64,000 nt of DNA from Buxus sempervirens (taxonomy: Eukaryota; Streptophyta; Magnoliopsida; Buxales; Buxaceae), in the NCBI GenBank assembly GCA_947561395.2, contig OX387192.1, forward strand, positions 7,352,221 to 7,416,220. Direction: 5' to 3'. Under the pieces are notes generated by a model. It saw only the letters and a program-made list of their open reading frames with translations. It did no database searches and was not told the DNA's origin. Within the stretch, counting starts at the first letter, position 1. Every line of letters starts with the position of its first letter. The translations under genes were made by a program, and so were the position numbers. Positions 33,430 through 58,941 of the stretch are shown in pieces.

Positions 33430-35698
33430 TGTGAGACATGGGAAAAATCACCGGGATGATCATCCCTCCGTCAACACACGGGCTCAACGTAAAAATGGGA
33501 GAGTCGCCACCATTCATGATTTTGGGGTGAGAATGGACACCAAAGGATCAAAAATAAGCAAAAAAGAGACAAAAGAAACATTCTAGGATAAAAACAATCC
33601 TACTTGAAAATCAAATCCAGAGATGGGTAAGGGGATTAGATTATGAACGGGGGAAGGTGTTAGGCACCCCCATTCATCCACGCAAAGTGGTTACCAAGTG
33701 TATGTTCATGCAAAGAAATAGAAAGCTTGCTAAAATCATAGAAAACCTTGAAAAAGGACTAATGTATGATATTTTCACATGAAGATCTAAATGGATTTTA
33801 GATCCTCTCTTATGTCAATATCATTTCTGGAATATCTCAAAAGATGGAAATCAAAGCACAAGTTGCTAAAAAACAAAGTTGAATCAAATCCGGAAAATTC
33901 AGTAAAAAGTATGCCATTTGCCTTGAAATCATTCAAATACCATTTTAAATTGAACCAAACCAAATCCATTTGAAATATTAGGGTAAATAAGAGTCTCATG
34001 CAAAATTTCACTTCATTTCGATAAAAATCCTAGGAGTTATGCTCCTTTGAAGTTGCTGCTGGGGATTTTTAAAAGTGATAAGTGGGCAACTTTGGAAAAT
34101 TGCATAGGAAAATCCACTCCATAAAAATCCACGAAATTTGGTGTGATTGAAGTTTGTATGGCCATCTTTCAAAAGAAACTAGCCTCATACAAAAATCCCT
34201 TCGGATGTGCCTTGGGTGGTCTCCCGAACAAGCCCCGAAGATCACAGATTTACCCAGAAAAGTACAAATGAACAGTTCTGAGTAAATCGGCTACCAATAA
34301 TTCAAATGGAATCCAAAAATTATGAAACCAACTGGATATGAAAATCAAGTCATAAAGGAGTACTCAGAAACAAAAATCACTCGAATCGGACTTAAAACGA
34401 ACACATGGCGGTCCGTGGAAGTGACAAGTTCTGTATTTGAACTTGAACTGTCCACTCAACTTCGACAGAGAGGTGTCAAAAATCCGTTTGATAGAAATAT
34501 ATGAAATTTGGTGGACAAAAACTAGACAGACTCACCTTTCCCATGGTTCTCGAATTGCTCCAAAATTCATCCGGACGATGAAGTTATGAGCGTCCGAAGT
34601 AAGGGTACAGGTGCTGTCCAGTTAGGCCACTTTTGAAGAAAATCGACTCAAAACTGTGATCAAGTGTGTGAGATTCGTGTGAGATGAATCCAAAACCTTT
34701 GAAAAAACATTTAAAACATTCCAGAATTGATTGAGGCCATTTATTTGAGATTTATCACAATAAATGTAATAAACCCCAAATATGAGCCTATCCCGCCAAA
34801 AGAGTGTAATATGTGTGCAAGAGTGAAAAACCAAGCAAGATTAATACAACAACATATCATGCATATAGATTCAACCAGATAGGTTCTAGCATAGCCTAGG
34901 GTTCCGTTCCATTATCGTTTCCCTCTGTTCTCTCTCCCCGTTAAACACGGTTCTTCGAGATAATCAAGAGTACTTTGATTATAGAACGGTTTTCAATCAT
35001 TCAAAAAGCCTTATGCTACATGGGTTCTAGCACTAGGGTCAATCCCCAGTCTCGTTTCTCCTAGATCCCGCCTTCACGTTTAACGGCTAGGGGGAGTCTT
35101 GAGATACTTTGAGCCGGGGAAGGATTTCCACACACAAAAAGAGGCTTTATTCTACAGAAAGGTAGAAGAAGAGATCTGGATCAAATAAATTAAATACGGA
35201 AAATAAATGAGGGTTGAGGCTTACCTGGGGTTCTGGAAGCAATCCGGCAGCGGTTCCCTTCTTCACTCGGAGTTCTTCGATCTCCAAAAACTTGGCCATT
35301 CGCTTGAAGAGGAGCCTCCTATTTATAGGCAAAGGCTAAGGTCATTGGTAAACACAACTTAATGTCTAGAACCCCCCAACCTTAACCCTAGGGTTGTTTC
35401 CGAGATTTGCCCTCATTAAATGAGGGACATGATGGTAACAAGTGATTTCTCTCGGAAAACCCTAATTTTGAGGAAAACTTAATGTATCCGGTATATCAGA
35501 CCGGATACACAAGGGCCTTAAGGTATCCGGTATATGGTACCGGATACACTAAGGCTCACATGTATCCGGTATGTTCCACCGGATACACAAAGGAGTACTT
35601 GTATCCGGTCTGAGTAACCGGATACAGGTAAAAGTTCATTTTCTTCAATTTCTGTGCTGGATTTTTGATGATTGTTTGTGCAATTTGGGGTGTCTACA
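33430..35698 (-). repeat. 3' LTR of element B
   Basis: On the plus strand the LTR runs from TGTGAGACATGGG to GGTGTCTACA, 2269 bp. A minus-strand TATA box (plus-strand TATTTATA) is at 35320-35327. Four palindromes lie at 35484-35625. A PBS-like TGGCGACTC (reverse complement) is at 33501-33509. ORFs within, including the pair shared with the other LTR, are non-coding shadows. Confidence 0.92.
35484..35625. promoter_or_regulatory. Palindrome array in the 3' LTR of element B
   Basis: Four copies of GTATCCGGT-N7-ACCGGATAC start at 35484, 35523, 35562 and 35601, exactly 39 bp apart. All eight arms are perfect here. The 7-bp centres and 14-bp linkers vary. The array lies about 160-300 bp upstream of the LTR TATA box in transcription direction. 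Confidence 0.95.
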
Positions 35699-35713
35699 AC
35701 TGCCCCTCTTTGC
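35699..35713 (-). other. Polypurine tract of element B
   Basis: Read on the minus strand, GCAAAGAGGGGCAGT abuts the LTR start TGTAGACACC. The tract is identical to that of element A over this length. Confidence 0.8.
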
Positions 35714-36241
35714 GGGAGTTGCGAAGCAGTGAGCTGCAAAGAGTAAACAAGCCCAAATTGCATTCCCTTGAGCATGATTTGCTCGGTTCAATTCAATTTT
35801 GTAGAAAACCATTTTTGGGTGGAAATTTGCCAAAAAGCCCTAACTTTAAGGGGGGCATCTCTCCAATAATTCTTAAATTCCACTGAGCTCTCGTGGCTAT
35901 GAAGTGGATTTTAAGCCTAAAAATAGGATTTTTTTGAAAAACTGATTTTTTATCAAACCAAGTTGAAAATTGAGTGGATATCATCCTTTTGACTAGCACA
36001 TTTCCCAAGGTTGCCCTAAATTCCACCGAGCTCTTGTGGCTGTGAGGTGGATTTTAAGGCAAAATAGGGATTTTGAGAAAATAGTAAGAATTATAGCACA
36101 AGTTTGCTCTTTTTCTTTTTTTTTTTCTTTTTATTTTTCTCTTTTTTTTCCTTTTTTTTTCCATTTCCTTTTATATTTTTTTTTAATTTTTTTTTCTATT
36201 TTTTCTGCTTTTTTTTTGCTTTTTTCTTTTTTTTTTCTTTG
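35714..36241. other. Spacer between PPT and antisense promoter in element B
   Basis: There is no gene. Two copies of a GAGCTC-TYGTGGCT-containing segment lie near 35880 and 36030, as in element A. A long T/C-rich tract at about 36100-36240 leads into the palindromes. The Phe-rich ORFs over it are low complexity. Confidence 0.6.
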
Positions 36242-56636: not shown

Positions 56637-56654
56637 TCCCCAGCAGAGTCGCTA
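56637..56654 (-). other. Primer binding site of element B
   Basis: On the minus strand TAGCGACTCTGCTGGGGA follows the 5' LTR end by two bases. It matches the E0 site except for A instead of G at the second base and T for C in the middle. The A at position two breaks the TGG that pairs with the tRNA CCA end. Confidence 0.75.
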
Positions 56655-56656
56655 GT

Positions 56657-58941
56657 TGTGAGACATGGGAAAAATCACCGGGATGATCATCCCTCCGTCA
56701 ACACACGGGCTCAACGTAAAAATGGGAGAGTCGCCACCATTCATGATTTTGGGGTGAGAATGGACACCAAAGGATCAAAAATAAGCAAAAAAGAGACAAA
56801 AGAAACATTCTAGGATAAAAACAATCCTACTTGAAAATCAAATCCAGAGATGGGTAAGGGGATTAGATTATGAACGGGGGAAGGTGTTAGGCACCCCCAT
56901 TCATCCACGCAAAGTGGTTACCAAGTGTATGTTCATGCAAAGAAATAGAAAGCTTGCTAAAATCATAGAAAACCTTGAAAAAGGACTAATGTATGATATT
57001 TTCACATGAAGATCTAAATGGATTTTAGATCCTCTCTTATGTCAATATCATTTCTGGAATATCTCAAAAGATGGAAATCAAAGCACAAGTTGCTAAAAAA
57101 CAAAGTTGAATCAAATCCGGAAAATTCAGTAAAAAGTATGCCATTTGCCTTGAAATCATTCAAATACCATTTTAAATTGAACCAAACCAAATCCATTTGA
57201 AATATTAGGGTAAATAAGAGTCTCATGCAAAATTTCACTTCATTTCGATAAAAATCCTAGGAGTTATGCTCCTTTGAAGTTGCTGCTGGGGATTTTTAAA
57301 AGTGATAAGTGGGCAACTTTGGAAAATTGCATAGGAAAATCCACTCCATAAAAATCCACGAAATTTGGTGTGATTGAAGTTTGTATGGCCATCTTTCAAA
57401 AGAAACTAGCCTCATACAAAAATCCCTTCGGATGTGCCTTGGGTGGTCTCCCGAACAAGCCCCGAAGATCACAGATTTACCCAGAAAAGTACAAATGAAC
57501 AGTTCTGAGTAAATCGGCTACCAATAATTCAAATGGAATCCAAAAATTATGAAACTAACTGGATTTGAAAATAGACTCATAAAGGAGTACTCAGAAACAA
57601 AAATCACTCGAATCGGACTTAAAACGAACACATGGCGGTCCGTGGAAGTGACAAGTTCTGTATTTGAACTTGAACTGTCCACTCAACTTCGACAGAGAGG
57701 TGTCAAAAATCCGTTTGATAGAAATATATGAAATTTGGTGGACATAAATTAGACAGCCTCACCTTTCCCATGGTTCTGGAATCGCTCCAAAATTCATCCG
57801 GACGATGAAGTTATGAGCGTCCGAAGTAAGGGTACAGGTGCTGTCCAGTTAGGCCACTTTTGAAGAAAATCGACTCAAAACTGTGATCAAGTGTGTGAGA
57901 TTCGTGTGAGATGAATCCAAAACCTTTGAAAAACATTTAAAACATTCTAGAATTGATTGAGGCCATTTATTTGAGATTTATCACAATAAATGTAATAAAC
58001 CCCAAATATGAGCCTATCCCACCAAAAGAGTGTAATATGTGTGCAAGAGTGAAAAACCAAGCAAGATTAATACAACAACATATCATGCATATAGATTCAA
58101 TCAGATAGGTTCTAGCATAGCCTAGGGTTCTGTTCCATTATCATTTCCCTCTGTTCTCTCTCCCCGTTAAACACGGTTCTTCGAGATAATCAAGGGTACT
58201 TTGATTATAGAACGGTTTTCAATCATTCAAAAAGCCTTATGCTACATGGGTTCTAGCACTAGGGTCAATCCCCAGTCTCGTTTCTCCTAGATCCCGCCTT
58301 CACGTTTTACGGCTAGGGGGAGTCTTGAGATACTTTGAGCCGGGGAAGGATTTCCACACACAAAAAGAGGCTTTATTCTACAGAAAGGTAGAAGAAGAGA
58401 TTTAGATCTAATAAATTAAATACAGAAAATAAATGAGGGTTGAGGCTTACCTGGGGTTCTGGAAGCAATCCGGCAGCGGTTCCCTTCTTCACTCGGAGTT
58501 CTTCGATCTCCAAAAACTTGGCCATTCGCTTGAAGAGGAGCCTCCTATTTATAGGCAAAGGCTAAGGTCATTGGTAAATACAACTTAATGTCTAGAACCC
58601 CCCAACCTTAACCCTAGGGTTGTTTCCGAGATTTCCCCTCATTAAATGAGGGACATGATGGTAACAAGTGATTTCTCTCGGAAAACCCTAATTTTGAGCA
58701 AAACTTAATGTATCCGGTATATCAAACCGGATACACAAGAGCCTTAAGGTATCCGGTATATGGTACCGGATACACTAAGGCTCACATGTATCCGGTATAT
58801 TCCACCGGATACACAAAGGAGTACTTGTATCCGGTCTGAGTAACCGGATACAGGTAAAAGTTCATTTTCTTCAATTTCTGTGCTGGCTTTTAAGGAGATA
58901 ATGATTTTTGATGATTGTTTGTGCAATTTGGGGTGTCTACA
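56657..58941 (-). repeat. 5' LTR of element B
   Basis: The LTR is 2285 bp and nearly identical to the 3' LTR at 33430-35698. The 16-bp length difference is one indel near 58889-58905. No difference is seen over the first roughly 890 plus-strand bases; about 28 substitutions fall in the rest. Four palindromes start at 58710, 58749, 58788 and 58827. It ends against the target duplication CTTAC. Confidence 0.92.
58710..58851. promoter_or_regulatory. Palindrome array in the 5' LTR of element B
   Basis: Four GTATCCGGT-N7-ACCGGATAC sites repeat every 39 bp. The arms are unchanged relative to the 3' LTR; the differences between the LTRs in this stretch fall in the 7-bp centres and the linkers. Confidence 0.92.

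Follow-up and report, generated by a model that had tools for sequence, protein, structure and literature searches.

Element B, a long terminal repeat (LTR) retrotransposon on the minus strand of a 64,000-nucleotide stretch of the Buxus sempervirens genome (contig OX387192.1; the whole stretch is referred to as the window), carries arrays of short inverted-repeat sites at its promoters. Its 5′ LTR (56657–58941) and 3′ LTR (33430–35698) align with 98.0% identity, CTTAC is found on either outer side of the element, and a primer-site-like stretch follows the 5′ LTR. The gag frame (51598–53919; PF03732) and the pol frame (43740–46628, with its 5′ part at 49323–50150) are both encoded on the minus strand, and pol is interrupted by a 3-kb insert (46416–49416), which contains a 147-bp tandem array (48611–49339) and is missing from the same place in another locus, L014. 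The pol frame comprises reverse transcriptase, RNase H, a second RNase H and integrase, and the order of the domains (RT_RNaseH 204–308, RVT_3 363–481 and rve 648–745) places the second RNase H before the integrase. Two genes lie on the plus strand between pol and the 3′ LTR and are antisense to B, as stated in the initial annotation, and their first exons match the PMD and DUF7745 profiles, in agreement with the identities proposed there. The PMD-type gene (37820–40341) has several exons, of which that at 37820–38743 matches PF10536 and the later ones have predicted limits; the DUF7745-type gene (40848–42552) has two exons at approximately 40848–41558 and 41669–42552 and a putative start codon. 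A second RNase H between RNase H and integrase is the arrangement of Ogre or Retand elements (PMC6317226), the PMD and DUF7745 matches correspond to an Ogre-like type of extra open reading frame (ORF), and no match to Transposase_28, the Retand marker, was obtained among the 10 proteins scanned. From the position of the second RNase H and the PMD ORF, B is classified as Tat/Ogre-type, that is, as a probable member of the Ogre branch of the Tat clade of Ty3/gypsy elements.

The motif GTATCCGGT-N7-ACCGGATAC is present in B as 18 units in five clusters, the number initially claimed; 17 units have two or fewer mismatches, and the remaining unit, at 55262, is degenerate (5 mismatches). A scan of the window with up to three mismatches yielded 18 matches, 17 in B (four in the cluster at 35484, two at 36242, four at 40578, three at 55145 and four at 58710) and one outside B at 4119, and no match was found in 100 dinucleotide shuffles of the window. 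The units within every cluster of B are spaced by exactly 39 bp and have centres of exactly 7 bp, as had been described. Four-unit arrays are located in the U3 regions of the 5′ LTR (58710–58851) and 3′ LTR (35484–35625), in each case 156 bp from a minus-strand TATA box (58547–58553 and 35321–35327, respectively). A two-unit array (36242–36305) is positioned at the antisense PMD promoter, 7 bp upstream of a plus-strand TATA box (36313–36319), and a four-unit array (40578–40719) at the antisense DUF7745 promoter, 12 bp upstream of another (40732–40738). The leader harbors three units and the degenerate unit (55145–55286), with no TATA match nearby; a 76-bp tandem array, also present in further B-like loci, lies in the same leader (53875–54989). 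These coordinates confirm the reported placement of the clusters in both LTRs, the leader and both antisense promoters, and the array positions support the idea of a cis module that serves three transcription units from their promoters; the reported distance of 8–12 bp to the antisense TATA boxes applies to the 40578 cluster (12 bp) and not to the 36242 cluster (7 bp).

Arrays occur at the same two places, the LTR and the PMD promoter, in a second element, A, which was absent from the initial annotation. The LTR of A (1396–3564, minus strand) is 75–82% identical to that of B and contains a four-unit GAC-type array (3320–3461) in which the right arm of the first unit is decayed, and a two-unit GAC/GAT-type array (4080–4143) is situated at its PMD promoter, 7 bp upstream of TATATAA. 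A piece of an antisense PMD-type gene of A (5777–6711, plus strand) is 67–76% identical to that of B. The arms of A are of the type GTATCCGAC/GTCGGATAC: position 8 of the half-site is A in 12 of 12 cases and position 9 is C in eight and T in four, whereas in B the half-sites have GT at positions 8–9 in 8/8 cases in the LTR and 8/8 at the DUF7745 promoter. A third arm type, GTATCCGGC/GCCGGATAC, was also identified. To the left of A (1–1012), pieces of a leader and primer-site region like those of B are found in inverted orientation.

Exact GGT/ACC sites number 5,920 in the source genome (676,531,615 bases) and exact GAC/GTC sites (GTATCCGAC/GTCGGATAC) 4,335, and the reversed-pattern control gave 0 for both. 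Twenty stretches of 9–10 kb were picked from GGT sites, a sample biased to the GGT type, and all 20 contain at least one 39-bp array, most of which fall within B-like elements, at the LTR, leader, PMD promoter or DUF7745 promoter; the neighborhoods of six GAC sites are all LTR arrays homologous to those of A and B, with a TATA box at 166 bp in five. Twelve rows marked as uncertain (11 chance arrays in other sequence and an unplaced A-like array at L016 7625) were left out of the array counts, as were L001–L004, which overlap L005 or neighbors. Forty DUF7745 promoters were then taken by hand from 150 listed genes, out of 5,620 first-look candidates, all 150 sharing no less than 96% identity with B over exon 1; an array is present at 40/40, four units were detected in 38, and the TATA box is 12 bp away in 39, so that the suggested check for family members without an array found no DUF7745 promoter lacking one in this sample. 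The unit spacing in these arrays (n = 117) is 39 bp in 106 cases, 38 bp in 10 and 79 bp in one; in the L036 array, a 79-bp step appears by eye to contain one gained unit (39 + 40). In a separate placement set, the TATA box lies at 12 bp in 9/9 DUF7745 promoters, at 7 bp in five of nine PMD promoters (the other four have no match to the TATA patterns used) and at 155–167 bp in 22 of 25 rows labeled LTR. A satellite repeat, the alternative for which a genome scan had been advised, is ruled out: each array has between 2 and 5 units, most arrays occupy set positions in elements, and the sites are tied to elements rather than to a free satellite. The array arrangement is thus real and widespread. 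The description of the module as family-specific is too narrow, since A shares the architecture and exact GGT sites occur in thousands, and so is its assignment to one retrotransposon, since it is carried by no fewer than two large LTR families (GGT type and GAC type).

Mean pairwise identity was calculated for each array class, with L016 and arrays short of the full unit number left out. The arms are better conserved than the linkers and centres in all four classes, as expected from the earlier statement that arms are kept while centres and linkers drift: 0.899 versus 0.704 for arms and linkers of LTR arrays, 0.958 versus 0.844 for DUF7745-promoter arrays, 0.949 versus 0.840 for leader arrays and, as the clearest contrast, 0.914 versus 0.581 for PMD-promoter arrays, the flanks of which reach 0.70–0.72. 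CpG retention is 310/325 cells in the arms versus 491/578 outside, the cells being not independent of one another; at the DUF7745 promoter alone, the arms (73/81) are no better than the flanks (41/45). Between the two LTRs of B, the differences amount to 0/72 in arm columns, 2/28 in centres, 1/42 in linkers and 42/2,144 elsewhere. The length of a four-unit array (142 bp) approximates that of a nucleosome core, and the arrays might accordingly represent a nucleosome- or recombination-associated repeat, for example a chromatin boundary, that has no specific reader. This explanation is very improbable, as PMD promoters have only two units at a fixed TATA distance and the identity of the arms is conserved beyond composition alone.

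Within the half-site, positions 3, 5, 6 and 7 are near-invariant in 170 units, and paired variation is seen at positions 4, 8 and 9: position 8 is paired in 164/170 units (146 expected) and position 9 in 117/170 (80 expected). Among 361 sites in which neither core is disrupted, the two arms are alike at positions 8–9 in 260 (shuffled mean 165, maximum 189), and the control position 10 shows no excess (133/424 alike versus 180 shuffled). Paired changes at positions 4, 8 and 9 could also arise if each unit acted as an RNA hairpin, with a 9-bp stem and a 7-base loop, in the packaging or stability of the genomic RNA, which in principle covers all of the arrays, or in small-RNA production. However, free covariation expected of such a stem is not seen, most stem positions being invariant, and on the sense strand, G-U pairs are not in excess over A-C pairs (18 versus 35 in the 170 units; 19 versus 15 in the comparison of elements with B); in addition, two clusters lie directly upstream of antisense TATA boxes. 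The hairpin is disfavored because neither tolerance of G-U nor pairing irrespective of the base is observed, and it is, by a little, the least probable of the explanations considered here; a dimeric DNA-binding reader is favored over it because the core positions are near-invariant and no G-U bias exists.

Both arms of a unit, and the units of one array, tend to switch type together. The GGC-type element at L035 differs from B at position 9 in 8/8 half-sites and in only 3/64 of arm positions 1–8, versus 31/309 in flanks, 15/42 in linkers and 10/28 in centres; 7/8, 6/8 and 5/8 position-9 half-sites differ from B in L026, L060 and L054, respectively, and 0, 0, 0 and 1 of 8 in four GGT elements. 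Type is also shared between promoters. The fraction of LTR half-sites with C at position 9 correlates with that in the DUF7745 promoter, approximately 5 kb apart (rho 0.89; 18 elements), and the overlap of types was reached in 0/50,000 shuffles for this pair and in 6/50,000 for the LTR and PMD promoter (17 elements). In these tests, L074 and L077 (no array in the fetched stretch) and L076 (two units, no PMD promoter) were excluded, eL026 contributed three LTR units and eL056 two DUF7745-promoter units. L041 is intermediate, with a mostly GGC LTR and a mostly GGT DUF7745 promoter. Covariation within sites and agreement between the LTR and antisense promoters are both predicted if a single reader diverges.

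TATCC-like words are targets of plant MYB-related factors. A host transcription factor might read the core TATCCGG, the element having stacked sites for expression in the right cells while positions 8–9 drift outside the footprint. The core common to all arm types and the proximity of the arrays to TATA boxes agree with such a factor, but positions outside its footprint should not pair as positions 8–9 do (260/361 alike versus 165 shuffled), nor would the LTR and DUF7745 promoter be expected to agree there, and this explanation is considered unlikely, if the best placed of the alternatives.

Symmetry might also have been produced in the absence of any reader, by templated mutation that copies one arm onto the other through template switching and by conversion or recombination that spreads a type between arrays. 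Eight of 158 centres appear to be inverted in place, two of them marginally; inverted 7-bp centres are found at L008 8233, L013 1630, L011 7429 and window position 3320 and in unit 1 of L028, L034 and L035 (for example, TTGAGTA to TACTCAA), and among the 40 DUF7745 promoters, CTGATAT versus ATATCAG occurs at unit 1. These inversions, the wholesale divergence of both linkers and centres in the arrays of GGC elements and a symmetric swap confined to unit 3 of L060 are in keeping with templated mutation. On the other hand, the core stays constant in arrays whose linkers and centres diverge, the TATA distance is constant, and the linkers show no sign of copying between arrays. Template switching could account for the matching arms of a single site; it would not account for a type shared over 5 kb unless conversion occurs between promoters, and the process is judged quite unlikely to account for the arrays.

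A dimeric DNA-binding reader would explain the fixed core, the paired specificity bases, the agreement between promoters and the constant TATA distances. On the basis of these sequence patterns, we propose, with a probability of approximately 0.5, that the arrays are operators for a homodimeric, sequence-specific DNA-binding protein acting on every Tat/Ogre promoter. The operators would consist of clusters of two or four inverted-repeat sites, each half-site comprising TATCCG and two specificity bases, with half-site centres 16 bp apart, and the targets would be U3 of the LTR and both antisense genes, PMD and DUF7745; one more array lies in the leader. The reader may be a PMD-superfamily product encoded by the element itself, in which case the element would regulate both itself and the gene of the reader. 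Its action would presumably be positive, by activation or relief of silencing, because repression of all its own promoters would bring the element little gain. The GGT, GGC and GAC lineages may have distinct specificities, which would restrict cross-talk from one family to another. The full scheme, in which a self-encoded PMD-superfamily dimer with at least three specificities (GGT, GGC and GAC) activates or un-silences Tat/Ogre promoters as an independently evolved counterpart of VANC, is more tentative than the operator function and falls somewhat below even odds.

Several observations weigh against this proposal. Some flanks match the arms in conservation, namely the left (TATA-side) flank of LTR arrays (0.910), the right flank of leader arrays (0.946) and the right flank of DUF7745-promoter arrays, in the 5′ region of DUF7745 (0.955), and leader arrays have no consistent TATA box (1/5). 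Pairing at position 9 is incomplete, being found in only 117/170 units. The types of the DUF7745 and PMD promoters do not agree significantly (16 elements; 6,858/50,000 shuffles), and elements of the same type partly belong to one lineage, so that type agreement is not independent. In GGC arrays, the linkers and centres outpace the flanks in divergence while the arm core is retained; as they are far more diverged than the flanks, these arrays may each have been exchanged as a whole. The flipped centres indicate a template-switch-like or recombinational process that could copy arm onto arm. Finally, DUF7745 exon 1 is disfavored as the determinant of position 9, as it shows no fixed difference between types.

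The antisense genes were further compared as candidates for the reader. Pooled ratios of nonsynonymous to synonymous proportions of differences (pN/pS) are 0.092 for DUF7745 exon 1 (10 rows, one duplicate, as L004 was kept here and duplicates L005), 0.146 for PMD exon 1 (10 rows) and 0.094 for pol (2 copies), indicating that both antisense genes are, like pol, under purifying selection. The two genes are distant relatives (25% identity). Between two GGC elements and eight or nine GGT elements, fixed amino-acid differences number 0 in DUF7745 exon 1, 4 in DUF7745 exon 2 and 9 in PMD exon 1, and the two GGC elements pair in the PMD tree (support 0.865) and not in the DUF7745 trees. The type-linked differences thus lean weakly to PMD, which is also more diverged at silent sites, in a comparison that includes only two GGC elements. 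An AlphaFold model of DUF7745 exon 2 alone has a mean pLDDT (predicted local distance difference test score) of 53, with only a long C-terminal helix usable (171–263 of exon 2, confident over approximately 66 residues), which could form a dimerizing coiled coil. One query of a protein collection with DUF7745 exon 1 returned 789 candidate relatives, none at E 0.001, and no solved structure was matched at E 1 by exon 1 of either gene. The profile matches of the candidate genes are to PMD and DUF7745, which does not place them in the VANC family. The most likely candidate for the reader would be a PMD-superfamily product of the element, acting in a manner VANC-like in logic.

Other features of the window and of the sampled loci are as follows. 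Element C (approximately 7171–23447), a plus-strand Tat-type element that apparently lies inside element A, has a DUF7745-type frame with one in-frame stop on the sense strand ahead of gag, and contains no arrays; none were found in its LTR or in the insert of the B pol. Between A/C and B, a Copia-type frame was judged by eye from its translation (23616–25787), and a Transposase_32-like frame (28130–28600; E 9.7e-11) is under the family cut-off. At L016, the region at approximately 4124–7540 appears by eye to be a solo LTR of another family, the ends of which match the insert in the B pol; it has sites at 4676 and GGC-type arrays of its own at 4819 and 6360, one of them 12 bp upstream of its TATA box, and these GGC arrays are possibly a borrowed operator.

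In Arabidopsis, VANC21 binds YAGTATTAY (C and T types), which is dense in tandem-repeat non-coding regions, and brings about a loss of methylation; VANC6 motifs are found also in the unrelated element AT9TSD1 (PMC5735166). As with VANDAL21/VANC21 and VANC6, where a short motif is dense in the non-coding DNA of one transposon family (PMC5735166, PMC10398659), the motif described here is clustered, non-coding and tied to one element group. In VANC systems, motif and reader diverge together and repeats turn over fast, and motif variants (GGT, GGC and GAC) likewise distinguish families or copies in the present arrays. The present system differs in belonging to an LTR retrotransposon and in its inverted-repeat sites, 39-bp period, fixed TATA distance and PMD/DUF7745 candidate readers; furthermore, binding and methylation loss have been demonstrated for VANC, whereas the present system is known from its sequence. 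It therefore appears to be alike in logic to VANC and not a member of it. MAIN and MAIL1, PMD proteins of Arabidopsis, interact with each other and affect transposon silencing, and a single promoter motif, DOWN, is over-represented among their down-regulated targets; they differ in being host genes, and direct binding to DNA is not described for them in the available portions of that report (PMC7156037). Retand, also of the Tat clade, has antisense TRP28 ORFs between pol and the 3′ LTR, tandem repeats and a proposed DNA-binding regulatory role, but with a TRP28 domain in place of PMD/DUF7745; in the available text of that paper, “palindrom” occurs in the reference list only, PMD and DUF are absent, and no sites are named for TRP28 proteins (PMC11963269). 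Extra PMD ORFs have been reported for Ogre elements, in 57% of which they occur, and for other Gypsy elements; a second RNase H between RNase H and integrase is likewise shared with B (PMC6317226, PMC9289625). The function of PMD in such elements is called unknown (PMC9289625), and unlike the present case, no cis array or PMD function is described in the available portions of these reports (PMC6317226, PMC9289625). A search of titles and abstract openings in the open-access literature found no description of such arrays, and within that scope the arrangement is new as far as the searches go.

To our knowledge, no function has been established for the additional antisense genes that Tat elements carry, and the presence of operator-like arrays at the LTR and antisense promoters makes that function directly testable. 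If the proposal is true, it would establish that plant LTR retrotransposons regulate themselves in a sequence-specific manner, perhaps by anti-silencing, and would suggest what PMD proteins, domesticated by plants as MAIN and MAIL1, do at the molecular level. It would also provide a reason for the copy numbers in the thousands attained by such families.

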